A model generated the notes under the pieces. That model was not told where the DNA came from and searched no databases. It saw only the letters and a program-made list of their open reading frames with translations. The position numbers and the translations under genes were made by a program. Source: Candidatus Poseidonia sp. (lineage in GTDB: Archaea; Thermoplasmatota; Poseidoniia; Poseidoniales; Poseidoniaceae). From it: DNA of 39,113 nt. The stretch is taken from positions 1 to 39,113 of the forward strand of contig JAUREJ010000016.1 of assembly GCA_030827475.1 (NCBI GenBank). The letters are read 5' to 3'. Of the stretch, positions 6,201 through 37,679 are shown piece by piece (the first letter of the stretch is position 1; every line of letters begins with the position of its first letter).

Positions 6201-9017
6201 ATGGTTAGGGTCAAGTACGAATTTTTGAGAGGTGAAGGTGAAGGGCATGGATTCGCACAAAGCGTTCTCTCCGCTCCCCATGCACATGGTCAGCGTGGAT
6301 TCGGTTGACGTCCCGTACGTTGCCGATGAGGGTGTGGGGAGGTGTGCAACGAGTTCTTTGGATTCACCTGGTGCCATGGTGATGCTGTAGAGTTGGGTCC
6401 CTTCCAGTGTGTGGATGGAGGGCGAGCCGCCCCATGAAGGGGCAGACCACGTGATCGTGGTGGTGGTTTCTTCGGCGTTTCCGAGGTTTTCGACCATGAA
6501 CCAAGCCTTTGCTGTGAAACCTGGACGGCCGACCCCGTTCGATTCGTTGAGCCCTTGAGGGCCGGTCAAATCCAATCCCCGAGTTCGCAAAACTTCGATC
6601 GGTAATTCTAGACTTACGTTGATGCTCGGGTCGGAATCTAAACTCAAGAGAAGTGAGACCGCACCCGAAGCATCACCAAGCGCACTTGCTGGGACGTTGG
6701 CTTCGAAAGATATGGTCTGCGGAGTCTGTGGGACGAGTTCTATTGTTGCGAGCGATTGGCCCACTACGGGGGCAAAATTCCAGTCTTCGGGCAGGTCTTG
6801 CGTATCGTAAGTGAGGGTCCAATCTGCTGTTCTCGAACCTGTTGAGGTGAGGGCGATGTCAATGATTTCTTGATTCCCGGGTAGAATCCGCGGGGGATCT
6901 AGCGGTCCTGAAAGTTCCGCAACGTAGGGTTCGACCACCAAATATTCGGCAATAGCTCTGTTGTTGTCCTCACGTTGTTCCGTGATGTTTTGGTTCACGT
7001 CTAGAACCAACTCAAAGGTGTGAAGTCCAAGTTGGGCTGTAAAATCAGCGGTGAAGGTCATGGGTCCACCCTCTCCGCTTGGTGCGACCGGTTGGCTGGA
7101 GGTGAAACGCTCTCTGCGAAGTTCAACTCCGTTCATTAAAATGGCTGCATCCACGTCGTCATCTGCTTCGGCTGTGCCCATGTTTGAGAATTGCGCAGTC
7201 ACCGTAACGGTCTGACCGGGGTCGGCCTGAGCTGGGTTGAAGGAAAGGCCTCGGTTGTCAAGCGTCGGTACGAGATCAACGCCTCTGTCAGACACGAGGG
7301 TGTCGCCAAACAGAACATCGAGGTGGCCGTCGCCGTCAACGTCAGCAAGTGCCGGTGCCGTCCAAACGCGATGGGGCATGGTCAACGGGGTCGACCATTC
7401 GTTGTTGATGTCGGCCGATGCGCCCGTGTCTCCGTCAAATGCCCAAAACCTGCGGCCAAAACCGATCAGGATTTCCGGTGTCCCTTCACCGTCGATGTCA
7501 AGCCAGAAAGGGGGGGAGGCAGCAATTTCGTCGTTGTCCGTTCCGCTCCCGCGTTCAAGGTCACGAACCCATTCGTTGACGGCATTTTCGTCGCTGATGT
7601 CGGTACAGCCGAGCATGCCCTTTCGGCTGGTGGTTACGCTCGAGTCAGAGTACCAGGTGGCCCAACACAAACGGTCTGAAATGCCATCATCGTCCGTGTC
7701 CATGGGCGTGGGTTGGGTGTCAGCATATCCATTCGGTGCTCGAAAATTGAAAACCTCCGTTGCTGAAGCAATGTCCATACCGATGAAGCGGGCACCTGTG
7801 CCCGATGTTCGTCCATTGGCGTCCGTAGGGACTGTCAGCACCATTTCGGGGGCTGCATCACCGTCCAATTGGGTGATGACGGGTCCGGGGAGCCTGAGCC
7901 GGGGCGCATCCGAATCCGAGTCTGTTCCTGGTACGGCAACCCGCTCCCAGTCAAGAGAGCCAGAGGCTCCGTCAATTTTCCAAATCCACATGTTCCCTGA
8001 ATTGGAATCGATGGTGGTCAGCAAGACCGATGTTGTCGTGCTGTCGAGTTTTGCCCAGACCGGGTCCGAAGGATGCGTGCCTCGGTCAAGGTTGACACTC
8101 CAGTCCGAGGAACTGGGTTGCGTTGTCGTTAAGGTGTAGGACTGGACATAGACCGAGGGATTGTTTTCGGGATCATCGACCACGGCGAGCACCAATTCCG
8201 GCGTGCCGTCCAATTCAAGGTCGGCCAACAGCGGTTGAGTCACCGCATCGTGGTCTGAATTTGCCGTCCAGATATGAGGCGATGGCGAGCCAATCCTTAC
8301 ATCAGCATCGCTGTATGACCACATCAATTCGTTGCTGTGTCCAGAAACCTGCCAGTTGGATTCAGTACAGGTTAGACGCGGCGACCAAACATCGATGTTC
8401 AGGGCACTGGCCGTGTCGTAAACGACGATGATCTCGGGATGACCGTCAGCGTCAATATCGTGAACCATGGGTGTAGAGCGAATCGCTTCGGTGTTTCCGA
8501 GCGATGTTCGCCAAGCAATTTTGGCGTCATTGCCTGATATAATGTTCAGGTAACTTTCCCGGTTTCCATCGCTGATTTCGCTCGAGATCATCACCGGAAA
8601 CAACATGCCCTCTCCACAGCGTTCACGTGCGGCCTCTGGAGCGGAAACACTCGCAGAGAAGTCGCCGATGATCGACCCGTAGGCGTCGCTTCCTTCGCCG
8701 GTTTCAAAGACCTGCCAGTTCACCACAGGATGTTCCAATGTCATGAGTTCAAGAACATCGCTCACGTTTCCGAGGCCTGGGCCGCCGTCCGGTCCGTGGG
8801 ATGGAGGGGTTTGGTTGTGTGTGGGTGTCTTCCCGTATTGCCCCCAAGGTTGGTCTTCTCCACGCCAATCACTCCCTCCCGAAACCGGGAGGTTACTCGT
8901 GGCTGAAATCAACTCATCTCCTCCATTGAGCGGAAAGAAAAGAACCGTCAACAGCAAGAACACAGCAACCCCGGAAAAGTACCGTTGTCCCTTTGTGGCG
9001 CCGGAACTCGCTGACAT
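3234..9017 (-). CDS. Giant membrane-anchored surface protein with FG-GAP/VCBS-like and CARDB-like repeats
   Basis: The 1927-residue protein starts with a hydrophobic export segment at residues 13-31 (YFSGVAVFLLLTVLFFPLNG). It then has a beta-propeller-like region with six Asp-rich calcium-loop motifs of the FG-GAP/VCBS type near residues 187, 265, 384, 439, 506 and 558, for example HDIDADGHPEII and ADVDGDGHLDVL. A CARDB-like domain follows (about 585-690), then a long run of beta-sandwich repeats with phrases such as NLGNAEETTTT and NLGNAVDG. One membrane helix lies at about 1782-1801 (WILGVAAVLVSLAWFGG), ahead of a cytoplasmic acidic tail of about 125 residues. The architecture indicates an outward-facing stalk anchored at the C terminus, for adhesion or polymer binding; the function is inferred. 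It is one intact frame with no sign of breakage. Confidence 0.85.
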   Translation of the reverse strand: MSASSGATKGQRYFSGVAVFLLLTVLFFPLNGGDELISATSNLPVSGGSDWRGEDQPWGQYGKTPTHNQTPPSHGPDGGPGLGNVSDVLELMTLEHPVVNWQVFETGEGSDAYGSIIGDFSASVSAPEAARERCGEGMLFPVMISSEISDGNRESYLNIISGNDAKIAWRTSLGNTEAIRSTPMVHDIDADGHPEIIVVYDTASALNIDVWSPRLTCTESNWQVSGHSNELMWSYSDADVRIGSPSPHIWTANSDHDAVTQPLLADLELDGTPELVLAVVDDPENNPSVYVQSYTLTTTQPSSSDWSVNLDRGTHPSDPVWAKLDSTTTSVLLTTIDSNSGNMWIWKIDGASGSLDWERVAVPGTDSDSDAPRLRLPGPVITQLDGDAAPEMVLTVPTDANGRTSGTGARFIGMDIASATEVFNFRAPNGYADTQPTPMDTDDDGISDRLCWATWYSDSSVTTSRKGMLGCTDISDENAVNEWVRDLERGSGTDNDEIAASPPFWLDIDGEGTPEILIGFGRRFWAFDGDTGASADINNEWSTPLTMPHRVWTAPALADVDGDGHLDVLFGDTLVSDRGVDLVPTLDNRGLSFNPAQADPGQTVTVTAQFSNMGTAEADDDVDAAILMNGVELRRERFTSSQPVAPSGEGGPMTFTADFTAQLGLHTFELVLDVNQNITEQREDNNRAIAEYLVVEPYVAELSGPLDPPRILPGNQEIIDIALTSTGSRTADWTLTYDTQDLPEDWNFAPVVGQSLATIELVPQTPQTISFEANVPASALGDASGAVSLLLSLDSDPSINVSLELPIEVLRTRGLDLTGPQGLNESNGVGRPGFTAKAWFMVENLGNAEETTTTITWSAPSWGGSPSIHTLEGTQLYSITMAPGESKELVAHLPTPSSATYGTSTESTLTMCMGSGENALCESMPFTFTSQKFVLDPNHQRSLPDATLNWDLTGTLPTNGMVQWNMAEMGLLETGWTWSTSGDWSTNGTYLEAQGTPGELVTGELELVLPVNAVPKRHAFEAVDANDADAVFNGSLHVLQIYRAGLSLIEPTLANSDDIVSLNVTESHRFLLFLSNPGNGQDVFELDATVSATDSEFESEVEFTFYDPIKTLGPLSTGIGTVDIVLSEDVPAQVPFEITFSWTSEGGNGEVFDAVTVNVQAAPSHEWGVTSLNGTNHQTIPGEVLNLSLEVTNLGNAVDGITLVPHIEVQAVGNDIAQWESASVASTSLAVNASQVIWFLLDVPPNAWAGSQAEVTLLHMTSGYVVGETTLIIDVLPVSSWRLNLTGADLEIEPTGENLTIQLVHTGNAYETAYFAKAGAGWNITLPDAIEGIAPFSTVTFTVFVEPPMNAVAGEIGVLRIRVTGNDTSGSIEEEVPVRVGAQPNIIVDHRSAWTVNEQGGYPTAWIHNLGNDIAMVSVDVDGLPEGWSTQQGTQMILAPGDISGLPLQLTPATGWNGQRFLITLNVHHPILGTVAHNMEVAYGSISWAQTPVRDAYVGAHQSIEYHFAGGETPTVSSGLTLQVKGNAVNFNQPSTTGEHEVVFLSGSNSTNLSLYVLARTYPESSITCTFLPGVFDNLGRIPISGTVAQCDLMADDAEPLRAALTMITSRGERVPLQAEFWTVGTDARETVNLTVLDWTPKPGMFAVVLTGHDQYGRELVNLDREVISRAANWNIGINSLTADGDITVGIQRTGYSILEQAVCELFVEASGGWSTTYVVDIAYAEFAPVVSIENPNSIEKDEKITATVSCSVPFDIDDNLDDDEKSAFYKPEGLLSVSSNDVGWILGVAAVLVSLAWFGGLIRPPSTRNQVTKTPDSLPKDARKESASAVEKAEKNAETTTGNVEPESDDIQVHVPDASKEETPPETEEGEHDSVPVIEVIEKTQPEVPATASGRLASLREELGGPGDAQLKGSIEDRMKDFFGDR

Positions 9018-9152
9018 TGTGGATGACCGCCTTCGGGGGGTTGTTATGGATTATGGCTATGCCGTGGTCTTAAACCCCTTTTGTTGGTTGCATCAACGGT
9101 CGCCAACCGTTGGCCATTCTGCGATTTGGGAGGGTGCCCCAATCCGTTTCAA

Positions 9153-9159
9153 TTAAATA
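9153..9159 (+). promoter_or_regulatory. Candidate box A (TATA) for the rpo7 operon
   Basis: TTAAATA, preceded by a purine/T-mixed BRE-like stretch, lies in the 266-nt gap between the divergent surface-protein gene and rpo7. It is about 130 nt upstream of the rpo7 start, so a transcript starting some 25 nt downstream would have a leader of about 100 nt. The rest of the gap (9018-9283) shows no RNA gene that I can recognise. Confidence 0.4.
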
Positions 9160-9283
9160 GGGGTCGTCGGTGGAAGGAATGACTTCGGTCGTTTTCTCTC
9201 CTGAGGTAACCCGGTGAAGGACGGAACCGCTTCAAAGCATCCGTGTTTCACCTTACCCTTGAGAGGATGAAGAGGTGAAAAGA

Positions 9284-9844
9284 ATGTACAAGGTCGTAAC
9301 GAAGGAAGACACCATCCGAATTCCTGCAGAATACATGCGGAAAGGACAATCGCTCGACCAACACATCGATCGCCTTTCAATGGATGCTTTTGAGGGTAAG
9401 TTTGACTCCGAAAACCGCTTTGTTTTGGTGACGAACAATCACAAAACCATCGGTCGCGGACGCATCATTCACGGCGACGGAGCCATCTACCAAAAGGTTC
9501 AATTTGACGCAGTTTTGTTTTGCATGGACGACCAAGAAGTTGTCGAAGGTGCTGTCTCAGAAGTGAACGAATTCGGCGCTTTTGTTCGAATTGGGCCCAT
9601 GGAAGCCCTGCTGCATAAATCCCAAATCATGGACGAGCCCGTTGACATCAACATCGGCGCAAACAAGATCACCGGCCGCCAAACTGGCCGAGAACTGGCC
9701 ATCGGGTCCTTTGTTCGAGCCCGTATCGTCTCGCTCTCACCCGACACTTCCGACCCTCGCCGCTCGAAAATCGGTCTGACCAGCAAGCAGGAAGGACTAG
9801 GTTCACCTTCGTGGACCGGTGCGAAACAAGACGGAGGCGAGTGA
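9284..9844 (+). CDS. rpo7: DNA-directed RNA polymerase subunit Rpo7 (RpoE')
   Basis: The 186-residue product matches Rpo7, the archaeal counterpart of eukaryotic Rpb7. With Rpo4 it forms the stalk of RNA polymerase that binds emerging RNA. The N-terminal half starts MYKVVTKEDTIRIP, the standard beginning of the Rpb7 tip domain. The second half is an S1/OB RNA-binding domain (EGAVSEVNEFGAFVRIGPMEALLHKSQI) at about residues 83-160. The ATG at 9284 is preferred over an in-frame GTG nine bases upstream, because GAGGTG at 9272-9277 gives a good ribosome-binding site for it. It is the first gene of a four-gene operon. Its stop codon is one base before the spt4 start. Confidence 0.95.
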   Translation: MYKVVTKEDTIRIPAEYMRKGQSLDQHIDRLSMDAFEGKFDSENRFVLVTNNHKTIGRGRIIHGDGAIYQKVQFDAVLFCMDDQEVVEGAVSEVNEFGAFVRIGPMEALLHKSQIMDEPVDINIGANKITGRQTGRELAIGSFVRARIVSLSPDTSDPRRSKIGLTSKQEGLGSPSWTGAKQDGGE

Positions 9845-9845
9845 A

Positions 9846-10049
9846 ATGGTCAAGATTCCGTTCGCTTGCGGCGAATGCCACCTCGTCCTGGGAGATGATG
9901 TTGACCAGTGCCCACGTCACCCCTCCGCCCAGGTCTCCTCTGATTGGACCGGTTACGTCATTATCATGCAACCTGAACGCTCTGAAATCGCAAAGCGTCT
10001 TCAGGTTGAACAACCCGGCCGTTACGCCTTGAAAGTCAACATCCGATGA
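9846..10049 (+). CDS. spt4: Transcription elongation factor Spt4 (RpoE'')
   Basis: The 67-residue zinc protein pairs with Spt5 to make a processivity clamp factor on RNA polymerase. It has CGECHLVL near the N terminus and CPRH about 15 residues later, so the expected four-ligand zinc site is present with His replacing the last Cys. The region SDWTGYVIIMQPERSEIAK is typical of the family. The start ATG at 9846 is placed by the one-base gap after rpo7; a longer reading frame upstream overlaps rpo7 and is ignored. Its stop is followed 10 nt later by rps24e. Confidence 0.92.
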   Translation: MVKIPFACGECHLVLGDDVDQCPRHPSAQVSSDWTGYVIIMQPERSEIAKRLQVEQPGRYALKVNIR

Positions 10050-10059
10050 GGTGAGTCAA

Positions 10060-10398
10060 ATGGAAATCAAAGACCGAAAAGAAAACAAAGTGCTGAACAG
10101 AGTAGAAATCTCCTTCAGTTGGAAGCACGACGGGAAAGCCACCCCCTCTCGCAAGGAAGTCATGGACTTGGTCCGAACACTTGAACCCGGTTCCAACCCT
10201 GATCTCATCGTTGTCAAAGACTGCGTGACACGGTTCGGCCAGCCCTTGACGACCGGGTTGGCGTACATCTACGGATCGGCTGACGCCATGTCGGTTGAGC
10301 CCGGATACATCTACAAGCGCCACGAACCCTTCCGCAGTGCCACCGCTGCAGATGAGGCCGACAGCGACGATGGTGCAACTCAAGGAGGCGATGAATGA
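10060..10398 (+). CDS. rps24e: Small ribosomal subunit protein eS24
   Basis: The 112-residue product begins [17 protein letters not shown], and contains [12 protein letters not shown] and [22 protein letters not shown], the diagnostic eS24 core. The C-terminal 20 residues are acidic ([15 protein letters not shown]). ATG 10060 is chosen over GTG 10051 because GAGGTGA at 10049-10054 lies at the right distance for the ATG. The stop TGA overlaps the rps27ae start region (ATGATG at 10395-10400), indicating translational coupling. Confidence 0.95.
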
Positions 10399-10565
10399 TG
10401 GGAGACGGTCCAAACGCCAAGGCCAAGTGGTCGAAGTACAAAGTGGAAGACGGCAAACTCATTCGCGCTGAAAACTGCCCGAACTGCGGCCCAGGCGTGT
10501 TCCTTGCACATCACAACAACCGCAAGTCGTGCGGTCGTTGCGGTTACACCTCGATGAACGAGTGA
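10395..10565 (+). CDS. rps27ae: Small ribosomal subunit protein eS31 (S27ae), 55-56 aa
   Basis: This is a very short gene. The product reads [18 protein letters not shown], then has a CPNC...CGRC zinc ribbon around the conserved GPGVFLAHH segment and ends GYTSMNE. This is the archaeal S27ae lacking the ubiquitin fusion of eukaryotes. Two tandem ATG codons at 10395 and 10398 overlap the rps24e stop; either could be used (56 or 55 residues). GGAGG at 10384-10388 is the ribosome-binding site. The stop shares the TGATCA palindrome with the convergent gene at 10566. It is the last gene of the rpo7-spt4-S24e-S27ae operon. Confidence 0.95.
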
Positions 10566-25340: not shown

Positions 25341-26060
25341 TCACAGCAAAGTCCGAAGGGCTTCCCTGTCAAATTCAGAGACGGCACAAGCATAGGCTTC
25401 GTTGACCGGGAACCATTTGGCCTCTGAAATTTCTTCGGTTTGAAGGGTTAACTCATCCACGGTTCCATCCCATGTCGCTCTGTAGGTGAGGGAAACAAAC
25501 GAAACCCCCTCTTCATTGAAGACACGTTGGGTGATCACCGGCTCTGCATCGTCCAATTCTATGCTGAGCCCGAGTTCCTCTTGAGTTTCTCGAATGCATC
25601 CAGATGCAGGGTGCTCGTTGTGGTCCATGTACCCGCCAGGAAGCGTCCAAAATCCTCGAAAGTGCCCTCGCTCCACCCTAGCCATCAGCACCTTACCGCT
25701 TCTGTTTTGGATCATGACCTTGGACACCAATCGATGGAGTGAACGGTAAATGGCTTCTCTGGCAACAGGATGGACCGCATTATCGGCAATACAGGCATCT
25801 TTCCAAGCCCAATTCTTTGGCCAGTCCAGGTCAGGATACGCCTTGACGACTTCCACTTCGGTGTTTCCGAACATCAGCCGAATCCGCCCTTTTTCGGTGT
25901 AGACGATGCCCATTGTTTGGGTTTCATCGTGGGTGGGGAAGCGCAACAATCGATCGCTCTCAAGTCGCCCGGGTTCGGGTTTGAGGGGTCCATCTCCAGC
26001 TCCGTCAACGAGCAGCACTTTCCCATCATGCTCAAGGTAAACCACGGTGAGAGGATGCAT
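25341..26060 (-). CDS. Nudix hydrolase with N-terminal extension
   Basis: The protein has a full Nudix box, GYMDHNEHPASGCIRETQEELGL, at about residues 152-174 of the 239-residue product (G-x5-E-x7-R-E-x-x-E-E-x-G); it is quoted here as its key pattern because the loop binds divalent metal and the diphosphate substrate. The N-terminal 100 residues form an unassigned domain (VVYLEHDGKVLLVDG...). The HPASG spacing and the tryptophans suggest an ADP-ribose/NADH or sugar-nucleotide hydrolase, but the substrate is open. ATG 26060 has GAGGT about 10 nt upstream; GTG 26102 is an alternative. The gene is directly downstream of rmuC with a gap of 44 nt, or 2 nt from the GTG. Confidence 0.85.
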   Translation of the reverse strand: MHPLTVVYLEHDGKVLLVDGAGDGPLKPEPGRLESDRLLRFPTHDETQTMGIVYTEKGRIRLMFGNTEVEVVKAYPDLDWPKNWAWKDACIADNAVHPVAREAIYRSLHRLVSKVMIQNRSGKVLMARVERGHFRGFWTLPGGYMDHNEHPASGCIRETQEELGLSIELDDAEPVITQRVFNEEGVSFVSLTYRATWDGTVDELTLQTEEISEAKWFPVNEAYACAVSEFDREALRTLL

Positions 26061-26104
26061 GGTCTGGCCAACCTCACTGAGAACAAGAAACCTCGTACGC
26101 ACGC

Positions 26105-27313
26105 TTACTCAGTGGGCGATTGATGGATTTCGCTTGGCTCCGGCAGCGCCTGCTGCAAAGTGTCTGAAACCTTCAAATCATCAAGTCTGCGACCTTGCGG
26201 GAGAACACGAGATCGATAGGAACTGAGGGTCTCGTTGTAGGCCATCGTCGCCTTTTCCAAATGTCCACCGACCTTGCTGAAGTGCTCAACCATGGTCGTG
26301 ACCCGTTTATAGAATTCTCGAGAAACATCGTAAATCTCCCGGGCCCCTTCAGCCAGAGCATGTTGTTGCCAGTACAGCGCTACGGTTCTCAACAAGCCGA
26401 GCATGGTGACGGGTGTCGTGACCAAGACGGCTTTGCTCATGGCATATTCCATCAATTCGGGGTCCACATTGAACGCCGCCGCCGCCATGGCTTCACTTGG
26501 CACGAACATCACCACATGGTCAAATTGACCCTCAATGGATTCTTGATAGGCTTTTGAACTGAGTTCAGTGATTCGAGTACGCATGCTTTTTGCATGCTTG
26601 AGCAGCAACTCATCTTGAACGGGTCCGGCATCGGTTTCAACCGCTTGAAGATACTTTTCTCCAACGGCTTTCGAGTCAATAGGAATCACGCCTTCTTCAG
26701 GAAGAACCACGACGAAGTCAGGGCGCAATCCGTTTTCGAGCGTCACTTGTTCCTTGAAATTCACATGCTCAGTTAAGCCCGCCATCTCGAACAAGCGACG
26801 TAATTTGACTTCACCCCAATTTCCTCGGGCTTGTCCCGATGTGGTCAGGGCAGTGGAGAGGGCGGTGGTTCTGCTTGAGAGGGATTCGGTCTTTTCACCC
26901 AAATCTTTGATGTGTCGGCGCAATCCTTCGTATGCACCGATGCGTTCTTTCTCCATCTCGGTGTTTTGAGTTTGGAGGCGCACGAGTTCCTCTTGAAGGG
27001 GTTTGAGCAGATGCTCAACTGCAAGTTTTCGTGTTTCAAGTTCATGATTTGCCTGTTCTTGATTTCGAATCCACCGTTCCTCCGCCATTTTGAAAAAATG
27101 TTCTGTGTTTTCAGCGCTCAATCGTTTTGAGAGGGCTTCAACCTCGGCCCGAAGCCGTTGCTCGTTGACTTCAGAGGTGGTCTCAGATGCTCGGATGCGC
27201 TCTTCTGCCCGAATCAGGGCAGCGCTGTTGGCCTGACGGCCAAGCACCCACCCGAGCGCACAACCCAGTGTCAACCCAGCTAGCAACAATCCGTAGTCTG
27301 CCAGAACCGTCAT
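26105..27313 (-). CDS. rmuC: RmuC-family DNA recombination/nuclease-like protein
   Basis: RmuC proteins have a PD-(D/E)xK-like nuclease fold and are linked to limiting inversions at short inverted repeats. The 402-residue protein has an N-terminal membrane helix (LLLAGLTLGCALGWVLG, about 8-24) and a long coiled coil with repeated Glu, Arg and Lys (25-160). The RmuC core follows: RGNWGEVKLRRLFEMAGL, RPDFVVVLP, VIPIDSKAV and FVPSEAM. ATG 27313 is chosen because it starts just before the membrane helix. The family is common in bacteria and less so in archaea. It is divergent from the metallo-hydrolase at 27393 and upstream of the Nudix gene on the same strand. Confidence 0.88.
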   Translation of the reverse strand: MTVLADYGLLLAGLTLGCALGWVLGRQANSAALIRAEERIRASETTSEVNEQRLRAEVEALSKRLSAENTEHFFKMAEERWIRNQEQANHELETRKLAVEHLLKPLQEELVRLQTQNTEMEKERIGAYEGLRRHIKDLGEKTESLSSRTTALSTALTTSGQARGNWGEVKLRRLFEMAGLTEHVNFKEQVTLENGLRPDFVVVLPEEGVIPIDSKAVGEKYLQAVETDAGPVQDELLLKHAKSMRTRITELSSKAYQESIEGQFDHVVMFVPSEAMAAAAFNVDPELMEYAMSKAVLVTTPVTMLGLLRTVALYWQQHALAEGAREIYDVSREFYKRVTTMVEHFSKVGGHLEKATMAYNETLSSYRSRVLPQGRRLDDLKVSDTLQQALPEPSEIHQSPTE

Positions 27314-27392
27314 GCAGGGAGAGTGGTGGCGACAGTATTTGATGAAATCGGGAACCGTCAAAGTTCAAAGCATCGCTTCATTTGGCCAAACC

Positions 27393-30341: not shown

Positions 30342-30405
30342 CACTTTCACTTTCAAATTCAGGGTCTGAAAAAACCAACTGGGCTACCCTGTTGCTTTTC
30401 GAGCC

Positions 30406-30675
30406 ATGGGACGAAGTGTACCGCCATGGCGAACCCGGGTTGAAGTTGAATTGGAACGATGGCATGGCTATCGGCGAGCGCTCCCAGCGGCGGAGCAAGC
30501 CGCATTGGATGCCTTGTTTGACGAGGTGCGCCAACGGCGCGCCGCCGGAGGAATGCTCCCCTCGCTTGAGACATGGCATCCGATGGTGCTGAGCATGGCC
30601 GTGGGCTTGATGGTTCGAATCGGCCAACTGGACCGACGCCTCTCTGCGCTTGAAGAGAGGCGAGTGGATGATTGA
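30406..30675 (+). CDS. Small helical protein, 89 aa, overlapping the PolB2 gene
   Basis: The product is Arg- and Leu-rich and mainly helical: VEVELERWHGYRRALP, AAEQAALDALFDEVRQRR and IGQLDRRLSALEERRV. The last helix could be a coiled coil. I do not recognise the family. The gene's stop (30673-30675) lies 8 nt inside the polB2 start (ATG 30668), so the two are translationally coupled, and its job is likely tied to the polymerase. A role as a small partner or subunit is inferred from position only. There is no clear ribosome-binding site, so it may be leaderless. Confidence 0.65.
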   Translation: MGRSVPPWRTRVEVELERWHGYRRALPAAEQAALDALFDEVRQRRAAGGMLPSLETWHPMVLSMAVGLMVRIGQLDRRLSALEERRVDD

Positions 30676-33124
30676 GGGGTGGTTGCTTGACGTTCATGAG
30701 AACGCCCTCAACACCGGCATGATGGTTTGGATCAGCGATGAAGCCGGGACGGCTCATGCGTGCGAAGTACCGTGGACAGCAGCTCTGCATGTTCATGCCT
30801 CGTCCATCGAACTGCAGCGCCTTGAACACTGGCTGATGCTGCCGGAAATTTCGGCACGGTTTGGTGTGCTCGGTGTGGAGCGAAGAGCCATGCATCTCGA
30901 TTTGGAGGGCGAGGGCCGAACAACGGTTTTGGAGGTGCGAATTGGACCGTTTCATCACCTCAAGGCGATTGCAGAGCACATCGAAGCGCGCGGGGACTTC
31001 CATCGCTACACCCTGTATTCGGTGGATGCGCATTTAGTGCAGCGTTTTCTGAGTGAACATGGCTGCAAGCCGTTCACAAAAGTGCGCTGGGACCCTGACG
31101 AACCGATTGCCCTTCAGCCGGTTCCAACGGGGGGCTCGGACGACAGCCCACCTCTTTGTGTTCTCCAATTTGGTTTGACTTTCGATTCCACATCGCTTCC
31201 ATCAGTTCATGATACGGTCAAGAGCATTCAGCTGCAAGTCAAGAACGAACCGGGCCTTCGTTCGTCACCGCGTGCCGTAACGGAGGTGACGCTTGAAAGA
31301 ACGCAGTATTCTTCCCTCGGTGATTTCCTCGGAGCCTTTGAGAAAGCGTTTCAAGCGATTGACCCGGACGTTGTTTTAACCTACGGTGGCGACCAACGTT
31401 TGTTTCCATGGTTCGCCCATCAAAGCGAAACATCGGGACGCCAACTTCGGTTGGGTCGCTCAACAGCTCTTCTCCGCCAATCCACAAAGGCCCGAACCGT
31501 GCGCTCTTACGGACATACTCGTCACCGTCACGGTGCATTCTTTTTGGAAGGTCGTTTGCATTTGGATCTTCGCAACAGTTTCATCGTCAAGGAAGGGGGT
31601 GTTGCGGGGTTGTTCGAATTGGCGCAACACTCCTGCCAATCGGCCCAAGTGATTTCTCGGCTCTCACCGGGTTCGGTCATCAGTGCCATCCAGATGCGTG
31701 TCGCCATGGACGACGGCGTTTTGGTACCATGGAAAAAAAACCGACCGGAGGACACAAAATCCGCCCTCGAACTTCTTCACGCCGACCGAGGGGGGTTGTA
31801 TCTTGACAGTCGCCCAGGAGTCCATTCTTCCGTGATCGAACTTGATTTCGCCAGCCTTTTTCCGAGCATCATCGCCACCCGCAACATCTCTCCCGAGACC
31901 CTCAATTGCACCTGCTGCCAGCCGCCGGAAAACACTTCTCGCGATGCCTTGGTCCCCCTCGACCCCGATGCGGCGATTTCAGAATTTCAGCGGAGGTATC
32001 GCCGTTCGGCGTTTGGTCATGGTTTGTTCCCGTTGGCCCACGAACATGCGATGCGAGTCCCGGGGTTGTCCAGCCACACCTGCGGTCGACGTCACGGGTT
32101 TCTTGGTCGTGTTGTTGCTCCCATTATCGAGCGTCGGCGACAACTGAAGCGCCAGCGGAAGGCCAAAGGCGACGCCTTTGACCTCCGGCAAAATGCTCTG
32201 AAGTGGTTGTTGGTCACCTGCTTTGGGTACACCGGCTACCGCAACGCTCGTTTCGGACGTATTGAAGCGCACGAGGCGATTTGCGCTTGGTCGCGTGAAA
32301 TTTTGCTAGCGACCATCGAGGAGGCTCAACGGGACGGTTGGGACGTTCTGCACGCCATCGTCGATTGCGTCTGGCTCTCCGACCGCCGCCAACGAAACAA
32401 ACGAGAGCAGCGCCTTGATGCGGAGGCCTTCGCAGCGCGCGTGACCAAACAGGTGGGCATCCCTCTTGAATTTGAGCAGCACTACGATTTCATCGCTTTC
32501 CTCCCCAGTCGTGTTCACGGTTCAGGTTCCCTCACGAAATATTGGGCCTATGGAGGTGGGGAGTACAAGGTTCGAGGCATTGAGTTGCGTCAGCATTCCA
32601 CTCCACTTTGGGTGCAGGAACTTCAGGAAAACGGGTTGGCCTTGTTGGCTTCTGGACCCATGGCGGCGGGGATTCCCGGCCCGGAATCGCAGAAACGTGT
32701 GTTCCAACTTTATCGCGCAGAACTTCAGCGTCTCCAGGCCGGTCAAGTCACGCCCCAATCGTTGGTCATCGCTCGACGGGTGACGACGGCATTGAATGAT
32801 TATCGCGTGAAAAACCTCACCTATGCGGCGCTTGTTCGTGCACATCAACAAGGACTTCAGATCCCTCCTGGGGGGAAGATTCGGTACACCGTTGTGAACT
32901 CAAGCGCCCGTGACCCGCTCGACCGGGTACTCCTTGCCGAAGAACTTCATGACACGAGCGAAGTCTTGGGGTGCTACCAGCACTATCAGCAACTTGCCGA
33001 ACGGGCCATCTGGGCGCTTCTTGCCCCGTTTGGTTGGACCAATGAGCGCATCAACATGGAGGGTCAACAAGCGACGCTTCTCGATTTTAACGTTCACCAT
33101 GACGGAGCCCCAATGCGCCCGTAG
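30668..33124 (+). CDS. polB2: B-family DNA polymerase, PolB2/Dpo2-like with degenerate catalytic motifs
   Basis: The 818-residue protein has motif A ELDFASLFPSII (391-402, with catalytic-type Asp393) and NISPETL. The motif B region is RQNALKWLLVTCFGYTG, followed by NARFGRIEAHEA, the signature of PolB2. Motif C reads HAIVDCVWLSD (562-572): Asp566 is kept but the canonical YGDTDS second Asp is replaced by Val568. The exonuclease is also degraded: Exo I reads LQFGLTF instead of FDIE, though a YGGD remnant of Exo II is present (239-242). The C terminus has QATLLDFN (801-808), like a PCNA-interacting peptide. ATG 30668 has GAGAGG upstream. Family members were called inactivated polymerases, but archaeal Dpo2 has been reported to have some activity. 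It is probably an accessory or translesion polymerase. Confidence 0.88.
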   Translation: MIEGWLLDVHENALNTGMMVWISDEAGTAHACEVPWTAALHVHASSIELQRLEHWLMLPEISARFGVLGVERRAMHLDLEGEGRTTVLEVRIGPFHHLKAIAEHIEARGDFHRYTLYSVDAHLVQRFLSEHGCKPFTKVRWDPDEPIALQPVPTGGSDDSPPLCVLQFGLTFDSTSLPSVHDTVKSIQLQVKNEPGLRSSPRAVTEVTLERTQYSSLGDFLGAFEKAFQAIDPDVVLTYGGDQRLFPWFAHQSETSGRQLRLGRSTALLRQSTKARTVRSYGHTRHRHGAFFLEGRLHLDLRNSFIVKEGGVAGLFELAQHSCQSAQVISRLSPGSVISAIQMRVAMDDGVLVPWKKNRPEDTKSALELLHADRGGLYLDSRPGVHSSVIELDFASLFPSIIATRNISPETLNCTCCQPPENTSRDALVPLDPDAAISEFQRRYRRSAFGHGLFPLAHEHAMRVPGLSSHTCGRRHGFLGRVVAPIIERRRQLKRQRKAKGDAFDLRQNALKWLLVTCFGYTGYRNARFGRIEAHEAICAWSREILLATIEEAQRDGWDVLHAIVDCVWLSDRRQRNKREQRLDAEAFAARVTKQVGIPLEFEQHYDFIAFLPSRVHGSGSLTKYWAYGGGEYKVRGIELRQHSTPLWVQELQENGLALLASGPMAAGIPGPESQKRVFQLYRAELQRLQAGQVTPQSLVIARRVTTALNDYRVKNLTYAALVRAHQQGLQIPPGGKIRYTVVNSSARDPLDRVLLAEELHDTSEVLGCYQHYQQLAERAIWALLAPFGWTNERINMEGQQATLLDFNVHHDGAPMRP

Positions 33125-33872
33125 AAGGGGGCATCGTTCGTTGAACAAATTCGCGGGGCTGGAGTGTAAATCGCGTCTGTGTGCGGTCAAGGTCCGGTTC
33201 CCATCGTCCCTGAAGTCCGGTTCGTGGATGGCGTAAAAAGAGACATCGTTGGCGTCGTGACCCCTGCCATTCACCGAGCAAATGGTGGTCAAAGTGGCGG
33301 TGCAGGTGCCGGAGGAGTTGAGCGAGATGCGGTGACCGTGCGCGTTGTTCCGTGATGACCACCACCGCTACGTGGTGATGTTGTGCGAGCCGCTGAAGTA
33401 CGCGAGCGTGACGCCTGAGCAAGGTTCGTGACTCCAGTTGTTTAACAGCGTCGTCCTCGTGCATGGCTAACAATCCGTCAACAACGACCAAAGGTGAGCG
33501 CGTTAACTGAACTTCATGTGACAGGCGCTCAATTTGTCGATCGAGTTGGTGAAGTGTAAACCCCCGACTCAGGTAAAGCCGAGCGAGACACGCTTCCGTG
33601 TCGGCATGTAAGCGAGCAATTGGGGCAAGAAGTCGGGAGGGGTCAATGCGGCACGCACCGTCCACCCAATGGACCATGTGACCTGCAGAAAGGGCCTGTG
33701 CGACCCAATGCTCGGCGACGGGGCGCATACCTCGACCGGCATGGCCCGGGCCGGCCAAGTGATACACCAAACCTGGCTGCGGACAAACATCGGCCAAGTT
33801 GAGTTCAGGGGCAGGCCGTCGCAGCAACGGGTGCGATGGTTCTCGGGTTTTGCTGGTCTTCATGTCGATCAT
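33087..33872 (-). CDS. RecA/RadA-fold protein with broken Walker A (pseudo-ATPase), ImuA-like in context
   Basis: The 261-residue protein has the layout of a RecA-fold core. A Walker A-like loop is at 41-48, GPGHAGRG, where the required GxxxxGK(S/T) has Lys replaced by Arg and Ser/Thr by Gly. A Walker B-like strand is at 126-136, SPLVVVDGLLA with Asp132. HHVAVVVITEQRARS (166-180) resembles the sensor strand of RecA/RadA. ATP binding is doubtful. The C terminus is His- and Arg-rich (RHLHRHFDHH). It is convergent with polB2, with a 38-nt overlap at their 3' ends, and divergent from dinB. The fold assignment is by pattern only; a structure prediction would test it. Confidence 0.65.
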   Translation of the reverse strand: MIDMKTSKTREPSHPLLRRPAPELNLADVCPQPGLVYHLAGPGHAGRGMRPVAEHWVAQALSAGHMVHWVDGACRIDPSRLLAPIARLHADTEACLARLYLSRGFTLHQLDRQIERLSHEVQLTRSPLVVVDGLLAMHEDDAVKQLESRTLLRRHARVLQRLAQHHHVAVVVITEQRARSPHLAQLLRHLHRHFDHHLLGEWQGSRRQRCLFLRHPRTGLQGRWEPDLDRTQTRFTLQPREFVQRTMPPSTGALGLRHGER

Positions 33873-33972
33873 TGACGGTTTTCAAACGAGGTCATCGTTC
33901 TTTTTGCAGACCCCTTTCTTGAACTGATTCCCCATCAAGTTGAAGCACCGCGGCCACCGTGAAACCGGTGGA

Positions 33973-35097
33973 GTGAGAGGGAAATTGAGCGGAAAAAGCG
34001 AGGAGCGAATCATCGTTCATTGTGATTTGGACGCCTTTTTTGCAGCCGTTGAAACCCTTCACCACGGCTTTGATGAAAGCATCCCGCTCATCATCGGTTC
34101 GGACCCAAAGCAAGGCCGTGGCCGTGGAATTGTTTCAACATGCAACTACGAAGCAAGAGCATACGGGATTCGTTCGGCGATGCCGATTTCTGAAGCGTGG
34201 AGACGATGCCCTGCTGCCCCGTTTGGGCCGGCCCGTTACATCCGAGGGACTCGAGGCTTGTACAGCCGTGCAAGCCGGAGGGTGATGGAGATCCTCCGGG
34301 CACCAGCTGGCACCTTTGAGAAGGCCAGCATCGACGAGGCGTACATGGACGTTACCGAAGCGGTTGAGGGGGACTGGGACGCAGCTTTGGCGTTAGCGAA
34401 ATCGTTGCAATCCGCTATTTTTGAGGCCCTTGGGTTAACCGCCTCGTTTGGAATTGGTCCAACGAGGGTCCTTGCGAAAATGTCGAGCGAAGTCAACAAA
34501 CCCAACGGCATCCATCGTGTTCTGCCAGACGAAATTGAGGCGTTCTTCTCCGGGAGGTCGGTTCGGGAAATTCCTGGAATTGGGCCGAAACGGGCGACAC
34601 AACTGGCAGAATGGGGATACACAACGGCCGATGAGTTGCATGCACTGGGCGAGCTTTCCCTGACGCGATTGGCAGGTGAACGTTTTGCAAACTGGTTCAT
34701 GCAGGTCGTGGAAGGCGAAAGCAGCAATATCGTGAGCCCGGTCCAGAGCCGAAAGTCCATCGGAAAAGAGCACACGTTTGAACACGACCAGTACGACCAC
34801 GAAACGGTGCTTCAACGCTTGGAAGAACTGGTGGAGGTCGTCATGGAGCGAACCAATGCTTTGGGAGTGTCCGGTCGCCTTGCGGAAGTGAAAATTCGCT
34901 ACACGGGATTCGAGACCCATGCATCCAGTCGAAGCATTCCCGTAGCTATGGACGATGCGGCGGTGTTCAAGCGCCTCGCAACCCGACTCTTTGCCAACAC
35001 CGTCGAAGCAGAGAAAGGTATTCGCCTTGTTGGATTTCGCCTCGGGAACCTGGAAGCTCCCCCGTCCCGCCAGACCACGCTCTTTGAGGAAGAATGA
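33973..35097 (+). CDS. dinB: Y-family DNA polymerase IV (DinB/Dpo4)
   Basis: It is a low-fidelity polymerase that copies past damaged bases. The 374-residue protein has the palm motifs: IVHCDLDAFFAAVE (Asp18) and ASIDEAYMDVT (Asp121, Glu122). It also has STCNYEARAYGIRSAMP of the fingers, LTASFGIGPTRVLAKMSSEVNKP, the helix-hairpin-helix IPGIGPKRATQLAEWG, and a little-finger domain (SIGKEHTFEHD onward). The end is RQTTLFEEE, whose QTTLF resembles a sliding-clamp-binding peptide. All catalytic carboxylates are present, unlike the neighbouring PolB2. GTG 33973 is the preferred start; TTG 33985, with GAGAGGG just upstream, is an alternative. The stop shares TGATCA with valS. Confidence 0.95.
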   Translation: MRGKLSGKSEERIIVHCDLDAFFAAVETLHHGFDESIPLIIGSDPKQGRGRGIVSTCNYEARAYGIRSAMPISEAWRRCPAAPFGPARYIRGTRGLYSRASRRVMEILRAPAGTFEKASIDEAYMDVTEAVEGDWDAALALAKSLQSAIFEALGLTASFGIGPTRVLAKMSSEVNKPNGIHRVLPDEIEAFFSGRSVREIPGIGPKRATQLAEWGYTTADELHALGELSLTRLAGERFANWFMQVVEGESSNIVSPVQSRKSIGKEHTFEHDQYDHETVLQRLEELVEVVMERTNALGVSGRLAEVKIRYTGFETHASSRSIPVAMDDAAVFKRLATRLFANTVEAEKGIRLVGFRLGNLEAPPSRQTTLFEEE

Positions 35098-37590
35098 TCA
35101 GACGAGGTGATGCATCCGGGTGAGGGTTGCGGAAAACTCTCCCAATTCATCGGGAATCGGCATGTTTTCGATGGGTTGGTTCAGGGAAATGCCCGCTTCT
35201 TTCTTCGCAGCCCATGTTCGTCCGTTGAAGTCCTGAAGGGTGGTTGAGAGGCTGCAAAGTCGCCTCCCCTCGTCCGTTCCGGGGTTAAGTTCGGGAAGAG
35301 GTGGTGACGGAAAAGCATCCACTTCAACCGCCGATGCGCCGTACACGGTGGCTGAAACGTGGTGAGTGAAGAAGGGGCAGACGGGGCTGAACGCCGACAT
35401 GAAATCCCTTACAATCCGGTGCAAGGTCCATGCTGCGGCTTTATCGTCGTCGTACAAACGGGATTTCACCATCTCGAGGTAATGGCTCGGGAGCAAACCG
35501 GTACCAAATGTTTTGAGCGCTTGTGTTGCGGTGTAGATGTCAAGATTCTCCCAGGCCATGCGAACGTGGTCCATGGTGGATTGGAATTCAGCGAGGATCC
35601 ACATGTCCTCGGGTGCAAGTTCAGCAGGAACAACTTCGAGGTTCTCTGGGACTTCGAATTGAGATGCAAAACGAGCCACGTTGAAGAGTTTGGTGAGAAC
35701 ACCAAAATATTTCTTCTCAATTTCTTCGGGGTTGATTTGAAAATCGTCCCCAACCTGAGCATCGCATGCTTTCCAAAGGCGGAAGCATTCACTTCCGATT
35801 TTGTTGGCTTGTAGGCTCACCGAGCCGTCGGGCCCCTTGACCTTCCACGAGCCGGTCCGCCCGCCTGCTCCGCATTCCAAGACGGAATCTGCATCGATGC
35901 CGTTGCCGAGCGATTTGCTCATTTTTCGTCCCCAAGGGTCCATGCCAAGTCCGTCGATCCAAACATGCTGGAATCCGGGTTGGTCGAGAACGAGGGTTGA
36001 CTTCAGCAGGGTGTAATACAACCACGTTCGAACGATCTCTTTCCCTTGGGGCCGCAAAGCGGTCGGGAAGGCTCGCTCAAAGACGTCGGGGTGGTTGAGG
36101 TAGCCGCTGACAAACAAGTTGGAGTTTGACGAGTCCATCCACGTATCGAAGACCTTTTCTTCGCCAGTGATGGTTCCCAGTGAAGATTTCAATTCCTCAA
36201 AACTCCCGAGGTCTTCCCTTGTGATTCGGTCCAGCACCCGACTTCCATCGGGTGGGGAGTCTCGCCATGGTTGGACGTAACTCCCCGCTGGTGGGACCAC
36301 CACCCGACGTTCATCCTCGCTGTACCAAATCGGGATCTCGGTATGGTACCATCGGCGACGGCTGATCGGCCAATCGATGCTGATGTTGTCCATCCAATCG
36401 ATGAGGAACTGACGGTTACGAGGCGGGTGGAAGGTGATGTCCTCGATGAGTTCTCGCATCCGGTCCTGAATGTGCGTCTGGCGGACGTACCACTCCTTGA
36501 GCAGGATAATTTCAACGGGATTTTTGCCTCTCTCCGAAACGGGGATTTCCTGTTCCCGTTCAACGACTTGAACCAAAGCGCCTTGTTGCTCGAGCATCAA
36601 GGTGGCTTGTTTCCTGGCTTCAAGCACGCTGAGTCCCTGCAACGGTCCAGCGACTTCGGTCATGTTTCCGTCAAGGTCAATGGCTTGAAAGGGGGTGAGT
36701 CCAAGTTCCCGGAAAACCGCAACGTCGTTCTGGTCACCGAACGAACAAACCATCAAAATTCCTGAACCAAACTCGGATTTCACCGAAGGGTGCTGCATGA
36801 CGGGGACGGTGGTCGACCTGCCGGCGGTTTCAAGGGGGAGGTGAACGGATTTACCCACCAAGTGCCGGTAGCGTTCATCATCTGGATGCACAACGACGAC
36901 ACCGCATGCACAGATCATCTCTGGACGAGTGGTTGAGATCACGAGTTCCTCCCCGTCTTCGCACACCCAACGTACATCAACGAGTTTGGTTTTCCGAGGC
37001 AGGCGCTCGACTTCGGCATCGGCGATGGTCGTCCCTTCAACCGGGTCGTAGATGTTGGGCCTCAAATCTTCAACGATGTCGCCTTTCTTGAACAGTTCAA
37101 CAAAGATGGATTGTGTGACGCTGCGGTAGTCGGGGGCGTCGGTGAGGTATTCTCTGTCGAAATCGCAGGACAAACCCACCCTTCTTGCGGTGTCCCTCAT
37201 GGCTTGCGTGAACGTTTCAATGGTGCTCTCGCAAAGTTTCAAAAATTCGGCGCGTTCGTAGGTCTTCATCTTCCGTTTGGTATTTTTCTCCACGGTAAAC
37301 TCAATGTTGATACCGTTTCGGTCAACACCCCAGGGGAAAAACACCTCTTTGCCCAGCAACCGCTGGCTTCGGGCGATGACATCGATCATCGAGTATTGGG
37401 CAACGGCTCCAATATGCCAGGTTCCGGATGGGTATGGAGGGGGCGTGTCAACGACAAAGAGTTCTTTTCCGCTTTCTGGATTGAACGCATAGCGCCGATT
37501 GTAGAGGTTCTTGTCAGCGTAGTGTTCTTCTTGGATACTTTTCTCCAAATCAATGGACCAACGTTTTTCGGGTAGTTTTGGGTCGGGCAT
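35098..37590 (-). CDS. valS: Valyl-tRNA synthetase, archaeal type
   Basis: The 830-residue class I synthetase begins near FVVDTPPPYPSGTWHIGA (about 45-62), where the HIGH signature reads HIGA, and has the KMSKS loop as GRKMSKSLGNG. The editing domain carries ISTTRPEMI. IDWPISRRRWYHTEIPIWY and FDTWMDSSNSN are typical of archaeal ValRS. The anticodon-binding region follows (KYFGVLTKLFNVARF), with a short C terminus lacking the bacterial coiled coil. ATG 37590 is preferred over GTG 37599 because a GGTGAGG-like site lies just upstream. The stop abuts dinB. Confidence 0.93.
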   Translation of the reverse strand: MPDPKLPEKRWSIDLEKSIQEEHYADKNLYNRRYAFNPESGKELFVVDTPPPYPSGTWHIGAVAQYSMIDVIARSQRLLGKEVFFPWGVDRNGINIEFTVEKNTKRKMKTYERAEFLKLCESTIETFTQAMRDTARRVGLSCDFDREYLTDAPDYRSVTQSIFVELFKKGDIVEDLRPNIYDPVEGTTIADAEVERLPRKTKLVDVRWVCEDGEELVISTTRPEMICACGVVVVHPDDERYRHLVGKSVHLPLETAGRSTTVPVMQHPSVKSEFGSGILMVCSFGDQNDVAVFRELGLTPFQAIDLDGNMTEVAGPLQGLSVLEARKQATLMLEQQGALVQVVEREQEIPVSERGKNPVEIILLKEWYVRQTHIQDRMRELIEDITFHPPRNRQFLIDWMDNISIDWPISRRRWYHTEIPIWYSEDERRVVVPPAGSYVQPWRDSPPDGSRVLDRITREDLGSFEELKSSLGTITGEEKVFDTWMDSSNSNLFVSGYLNHPDVFERAFPTALRPQGKEIVRTWLYYTLLKSTLVLDQPGFQHVWIDGLGMDPWGRKMSKSLGNGIDADSVLECGAGGRTGSWKVKGPDGSVSLQANKIGSECFRLWKACDAQVGDDFQINPEEIEKKYFGVLTKLFNVARFASQFEVPENLEVVPAELAPEDMWILAEFQSTMDHVRMAWENLDIYTATQALKTFGTGLLPSHYLEMVKSRLYDDDKAAAWTLHRIVRDFMSAFSPVCPFFTHHVSATVYGASAVEVDAFPSPPLPELNPGTDEGRRLCSLSTTLQDFNGRTWAAKKEAGISLNQPIENMPIPDELGEFSATLTRMHHLV

Positions 37591-37679
37591 GTGCCTCACC
37601 TGGCCCCGTCTCGGTCAATGAGGTGGGTCCAATCCGTCGGTATCGGGTCGGCATTTCAACCCGTCGCCAATGGCTGTCC

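Follow-up and report, generated by a model that had tools for sequence, protein, structure and literature searches.

The locus and the question

A stretch of 39,113 nucleotides from Candidatus Poseidonia sp. (contig JAUREJ010000016.1), referred to below as the window, carries four adjacent genes at positions 30406-35097, encoding a small protein of 89 amino acids, a DNA polymerase of the PolB2 type, a RecA-like protein lacking a working ATPase site and the Y-family polymerase DinB. The host group, the Poseidoniales, is marine and mostly uncultured. A sequence-only reading had taken the four genes for one translesion module, and the locus raises the question of which of them belong together and what controls them. 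All four open reading frames (ORFs) were confirmed; the host assembly measures 1.82 Mb and is 87% complete. We consider it likely that three of them encode an already known translesion mutasome, that this mutasome belongs to a small and probably damage-induced regulon, and that DinB stands apart from it. The complex is known; its arrangement and control vary from the described form. The new part is a tandem hexamer element common to the small gene, to the gene of the RecA-like protein in many relatives and to other gene families.

Three of the four genes encode the PolB2 mutasome

Family searches matched the three larger proteins to DNA_pol_B, Rad51 and Pol IV/IMS, and yielded no family model above cut-off for the 89-aa protein. 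On the basis of its MGR[ST] arm and its gene context, the latter is assigned to PPB2 (arCOG07300), which together with PolB2 and inactive RadA (iRadA) has already been described as one system (PMC4104785, PMC11791011). Residues M1, G2, R3, V5, W8, R9 and R11 of the arm were invariant across 29 aligned rows, and the MGRT arm published for the PolB2 mutasome (PMC11791011) agrees with MGRS in the window. The small gene, previously regarded as a little-described component, is thus one known from the literature (PMC4104785, PMC11791011).

The polymerase is of the PolB2 type, with the first Asp of the DxD motif replaced and the exonuclease site lost, and its IVD and DRGG stretch was invariant in 14 out of 14 aligned PolB2 rows. 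Loss of these acidic residues, seen in the alignment and reported for the family (PMC4104785), would fit what was first proposed for the PolB2 family, namely a catalytically dead polymerase that serves structure or regulation. We regard such a role as unlikely here, given that Sulfolobus Dpo2, an IID enzyme missing the same Asp, was reported to be an active enzyme on which targeted mutagenesis depends (PMC11791011; PMC7390963) and that the other PolB2 motif residues were invariant in the 14 rows. Loss of the first Asp is the rule among PolB2 proteins, and Dpo2 with the same change is reported as active (PMC11791011), and the earlier term “degenerate” is therefore misleading.

The 261-aa protein proved to be a RadA/Rad51 homologue with an inactivated ATPase site. 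Monomer structure prediction followed by fold comparison gave a Rad51 fold, with RadA/Rad51 as best matches, so the RecA fold assigned to it earlier was upheld. A relationship to ImuA was considered and set aside, the best profile and fold matches being RadA/Rad51 in a comparison made outside ImuA itself. The window shares with the published PolB2 mutasome (PMC11791011, PMC4104785) all three components, the IVD-type active site, the dead Walker A and clamp-motif-like tails. By these sequence features, PPB2, PolB2 and iRadA together are the known archaeal PolB2 mutasome.

The sequence-only reading had drawn a parallel to the bacterial ImuA-ImuB-DnaE2 system. In bacterial ImuABC, a polymerase is accompanied by a RecA-family protein and a small accessory factor. 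This composition is common to ImuA-ImuB-DnaE2, Pol V and the triad described here, but the bacterial systems employ other polymerase families, and the Y-family gene of the window is merely a neighbour rather than a conserved member of the unit as in ImuA-ImuB-DnaE2. The parallel is looser than the comparison of the PolB2 mutasome with Pol V, which is already in print (PMC11791011).

Convergent arrangement of the triad

We compared the loci of the best 80 of 555 confirmed PolB2 matches, 74 of which contained all three triad genes. The order PPB2>PolB2><iRadA was found in all 74, with iRadA always on the opposite strand and convergent with polB2; the tails of the two genes overlapped in 66 of these loci by 4-214 nt, with ORF ends set mechanically. 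The scattering among genomes that would speak against a module was hence absent for the triad, while it was observed for DinB (see below). The usual PolB2 mutasome is a same-strand operon, in contrast to the opposite-strand iRadA with overlapping 3' ends seen here. As an outgroup, 20 hand-picked loci from other Thermoplasmatota families were used, with 4.9-17 kb fetched for each. iRadA was found in 15 of them, in every case on the polB2 strand; inspected by eye, 12 of the 15 clearly showed the order iRadA-PPB2-polB2, L181 had PPB2-polB2-iRadA, L178 was without a PPB2 match and in L190 the matches overlapped. Since iRadA lies on the same strand as polB2 in these other families, the convergent form looks derived within the Poseidoniales. 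As a side observation, in a same-genus subgroup (L024-L028, L068) PolB2 lies at another site and is only ~51% identical to that of the window, with DinB ~70% identical; replacement of the triad through transfer is possible in this subgroup, judging from these identities.

A tandem hexamer element precedes PPB2 and iRadA

Upstream of PPB2 we found a tandem hexamer element, TTCANTTTCANTT, located ~66 nt before the gene and present in 66 of 75 loci at up to three mismatches; in most relatives it takes the form of a tandem ACTTTC. Counts were made with the pattern TTCACTTTCACTT and compared with dinucleotide shuffles. Before PPB2 the pattern occurred in 19, 47 and 66 of the 75 loci at up to one, two and three mismatches, respectively (shuffles 0, 0.8 and 4.3%), and before iRadA in 12, 21 and 46 of 69 (shuffles 0, 0.7 and 5.1%); a third dinucleotide shuffle set gave 1.9%. 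Before the remaining long ORFs in these loci it was found in 0 of 403 cases at two mismatches and in 2 of 403 at three. Measured to the PPB2 start codon, the element begins ~60-79 nt upstream in the Poseidoniales. The first hexamer of the 66 PPB2 elements, which had been pre-selected at up to three mismatches, reads A in 66, then C in 42, T in 17, G in 5 and A in 2, followed by T in 64, T in 66, T in 66 and C in 58, giving the hexamer consensus A(N)TTTC with the second position of the first hexamer most variable. The copy in the window matches CACTTTCACTTTC exactly, with two mismatches to TTCACTTTCACTT, and is the sole exact copy of CACTTTCACTTTC found in the 1.82-Mb assembly. A TATA-like box was seen in 12 of the 75 PPB2 upstreams with a loose pattern. 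By eye, a single ACTTTC stood upstream of iRadA in 5 of the 20 loci from other Thermoplasmatota, and ATTTTC in one; these single hexamers are suggestive only.

DinB is a syntenic neighbour

DinB adjacency was counted over 70 loci, each having a DinB match or at least 900 nt of sequence beyond iRadA, and DinB adjoined iRadA in 38. This frequency is an argument for the four genes forming one error-prone complex or regulated module. The surroundings of the 38 loci argue otherwise: serA was present in 36, a valyl-tRNA synthetase-type (ValRS-type) gene in 36 and at least one of them in all 38, the missing gene falling at a contig end, whereas the 32 loci without adjoining DinB had neither (the sequence ahead of polB2 reaches 1500 nt or more in 26 of these, and that past iRadA 2500 nt or more in 30). 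Moreover, serA and dinB remain adjacent in same-genus genomes with the triad on a different contig (G001, G018, G023, G028), and serA, dinB and the ValRS-type gene are lined up in G030, G034 and G042, where the PolB2 search gave weak B-family matches only; in G034, ~850 nt with one extra gene-sized stretch lie between serA and dinB. On a PolB2 tree, built with a quick method, showing several long branches and omitting the too short L128, triad location takes three parsimony changes, two of them forced by well-supported branches. Because location changed so few times, DinB adjacency offers little independent support for a functional link. The element occurred with triads at either type of chromosomal site and therefore travels with them.

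Furthermore, no DinB/IMS match was found in six triad-bearing genomes of family f2 (G035, G037, G044, G049, G052, G057; 85-94% complete), and DinB was detected in only one of 24 f2 genomes; among eight others examined, its absence is less telling in four f1 genomes that are 73-85% complete. The 20 loci from other Thermoplasmatota gave no DinB match better than E 0.3, and the element was absent from all 35 DinB upstreams, scanned on the sense strand only. In favour of the four-gene module, a bidirectional promoter could lie between iRadA and dinB, which a scan of the DinB sense strand would leave uncovered, and in L067 and L089 the iRadA-DinB pair stayed intact with ~2.2 kb between polB2 and iRadA. 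In L067 two inserted genes (8498-10443) account for the separation, and the gap in L089 is equally large. In addition, Dpo4 and Dpo2 act sequentially in vitro (PMC8721586), and by analogy with this Sulfolobus biochemistry it is plausible that PolB2 and a Y-family polymerase co-operate at a lesion. We nevertheless hold a complex or module of all four genes to be very unlikely. The proposed translesion module stands for PPB2, PolB2 and iRadA as a system already described, and DinB as a fourth member was rejected in view of its synteny-driven adjacency, the element count of 0/35 on the sense strand and the six f2 genomes without a Y-family match. On balance DinB appears to be a neighbour through synteny, separate from the triad; it may act as an inserter yet stands outside the PolB2 unit.

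The element precedes further gene families

Exact copies of TTCACTTTCACTT numbered 0-4 per genome across 39 genomes, 28 of which had any; the reversed pattern reads the same as the forward one and hence is no control for these exact counts. We inspected 30 exact-pattern loci, and 24 had a clear gene at a near-fixed distance, namely PPB2 (2), a propeller-like protein of 187-190 aa (6), a 58-aa protein (6), a 91-aa family (8) and an 81-aa family (2). The other six (L199, L208, L219, L220, L223, L225) were without a clear downstream gene; in L199, L208 and L225 the exact copies lie within a reading frame or next to one, and no gene clearly follows at the customary spacing. The idea of a generic promoter was discarded in view of the 0-4 exact copies per genome and of the closed MG-II chromosome G073, where the 1699 ORFs with a length of 150 aa or more gave 0, 1 and 45 hits at one, two and three mismatches.

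A position weight matrix scan of 1.6 Mb of G073 placed the 58-aa gene, PPB2 and the propeller gene, in that order, as the top three sites and iRadA in the ninth row; at position 367157 a 20.3-bit site was found without a gene. Training of the matrix excluded L084, the G073 locus, and L103, and kept the near relative L128, which favours PPB2 and neither the 58-aa nor the propeller gene. The 58-aa and propeller families were first found via the element and their homologues afterwards through protein similarity (best 30 of 35 for the propeller protein, best 30 of 33 for the 58-aa protein). The element stood at up to two mismatches 64-69 nt upstream of all 28 propeller homologues counted (L331 and L333 of the 30 rows were dropped) and 64-67 nt upstream of 27 of the 30 58-aa homologues; another of these had it at 51 nt with three mismatches, and two were without it. 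The element-bearing genomes are related, and these counts are not independent events. Both genes have the element in the window's own genome as well (Table 1). Apart from the mutasome, the member genes gave no Pfam match, or only sub-threshold weak beta-propeller and other matches. The 91-aa protein has a YRK/RR-rich N-terminal part and in most cases a conserved SPSSW motif (VSPSSW or similar), and its gene is preceded by two or three hexamers in eight f2 loci (L214-L218, L221, L222, L224).

Features of the locus

Coordinates are collected in Table 1. The C-terminus of DinB (window 34990-35097) reads QTTLFEEE, which we take to be closer to the bacterial clamp motif than to a PCNA box. An RmuC-family protein (Pfam 1.5e-81) and a Nudix protein, noted at 25341-27361, sit four to five genes ahead of PPB2; both families are linked to DNA upkeep. 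As a further difference from the published PolB2 mutasome, no match to orc1/cdc6, SRAP or DUF72 came up when 11 other window proteins, a part of the window ORFs, were compared with family models.

Table 1. Positions of the mutasome genes, their element and neighbouring or element-linked features (window coordinates unless a contig is named)
Feature	Position	Strand	Remark
Tandem ANTTTC element CACTTTCACTTTC	30342..30354	+	starts 64 nt upstream of PPB2 start
PPB2 (arCOG07300-like), 89 aa	30406..30675	+	N-terminal arm MGRSVPPWR
PolB2, 818 aa	30668..33124	+	DTD replaced by IVD (HAIVDCVW); DFASLFPSI Asp retained; exonuclease DIE lost
PCNA-box-like QATLLDF near PolB2 C-terminus	33068..33088	+	pattern match only
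Overlapping 3' ends of the convergent genes polB2 and iRadA	33087..33124		no strand
iRadA, 261 aa, Rad51/RadA family without working Walker A	33087..33872	-	
Degenerate Walker A of iRadA, GPGHAGRGM	33726..33752	-	direct reading
DinB-type Y-family polymerase	33940..35097	+	neighbour, excluded from module
Valine--tRNA ligase-like gene	35098-37599		family search 699 bits, below cut-off 738
58-aa protein, window's own genome	G000:C25:9775-9945	-	exact tandem element 66 nt upstream
Propeller-like protein, window's own genome	G000:C25:53576-54136	-	element 66 nt upstream, 2 mismatches

A probable damage-induced regulon

The hexamer consensus resembles a known archaeal signal. ANTTTC is known from Sulfolobus acidocaldarius as the hexamer of UV promoters (PMC5817253), and in S. 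islandicus it is bound by Orc1-2, described as activating expression of Dpo2, the PolB2 of that organism (PMC9738581); SiRe_0614-0616, two of them labelled Dpo2, were upregulated 21- to 26-fold after NQO (PMC10470591). An A(N)TTTC upstream of the PolB2 unit is thus common to the Sulfolobales damage response (PMC9738581, PMC5817253, PMC10470591) and the Poseidoniales. In the literature searched, the ANTTTC element was reported only for Sulfolobales. By this analogy we infer that the Poseidoniales element marks a damage-type regulon. Two transcription units, PPB2-polB2 and the opposite-strand iRadA, would supply the complex, whose architecture, a PolB2-iRadA-PPB2 heteropentamer, and polymerase activity are taken from the published work: PPB2, a trimer in published models, and iRadA would keep PolB2 on a primer end distorted by a lesion, for PolB2 to extend with errors. 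The tandem ANTTTC upstream of PPB2 is the probable, predicted binding site of a damage-response regulator, and the regulon would comprise the PolB2 unit together with the 58-aa protein and the 187-aa propeller-like protein, extended by iRadA in many relatives and by further small proteins in family f2.

Several observations weigh against damage control. Upstream of iRadA in the window no recognisable element was found (the closest site has 6 mismatches); at three mismatches it was missing from 23 of 69 iRadA and 9 of 75 PPB2 upstreams. The iRadA elements are laxer than those of PPB2, with C of the first hexamer in 29 of 46, and were placed from a protein anchor rather than from the start codon. 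The Sulfolobus hexamer is single and sits at about -44 to -39 from the transcription start site (PMC5817253), directly ahead of BRE/TATA, whereas the element here is tandem, probably further upstream and linked with other member genes; its letters agree with the Sulfolobus hexamer better than its position does, and six bases with one free position are weak evidence for a common regulator. Finally, the element precedes the 91-aa gene in eight f2 genomes whose PolB2 matches are weak B-family ones only; because it occurs where there is no clear PolB2, it is not confined to translesion synthesis.

These differences in position, the element in genomes without a clear PolB2 and the uncharacterised nature of the other element-bearing genes, with no or weak sub-threshold Pfam matches, would fit a regulon unrelated to DNA damage, responding for example to growth phase or light, with the likeness to ANTTTC coincidental. 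We consider this a real possibility, although somewhat unlikely: translesion genes make up two of the element-linked units, the hexamer has its free position where ANTTTC does, and Orc1/Cdc6 C-terminal matches, a possible source of the regulator, were obtained in 39 of 39 genomes (two in 34, one in 5). A regular-expression search of 1.6 Mb of G073 found no Cdc6 genes. Damage control of the mutasome through the element is the reading that we favour.

Biological meaning

In these archaea a conserved element apparently precedes the gene of the mutagenic polymerase as well as those of a few uncharacterised small proteins. What deserves testing is the regulon, the four-gene module itself being no news: the element makes the damage response of the Poseidoniales testable and provides a candidate link to ANTTTC. 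A further step, which we put forward tentatively and with more doubt than confidence, is that the Poseidoniales possess a compact damage regulon built on tandem ANTTTC, sharing its hexamer with Orc1-2 of the Sulfolobales. If so, an archaeal SOS counterpart controlling PolB2 would be ancient and common to distant archaeal phyla, and the damage response would gain new effectors in the 58-aa, 91-aa and propeller-like proteins.

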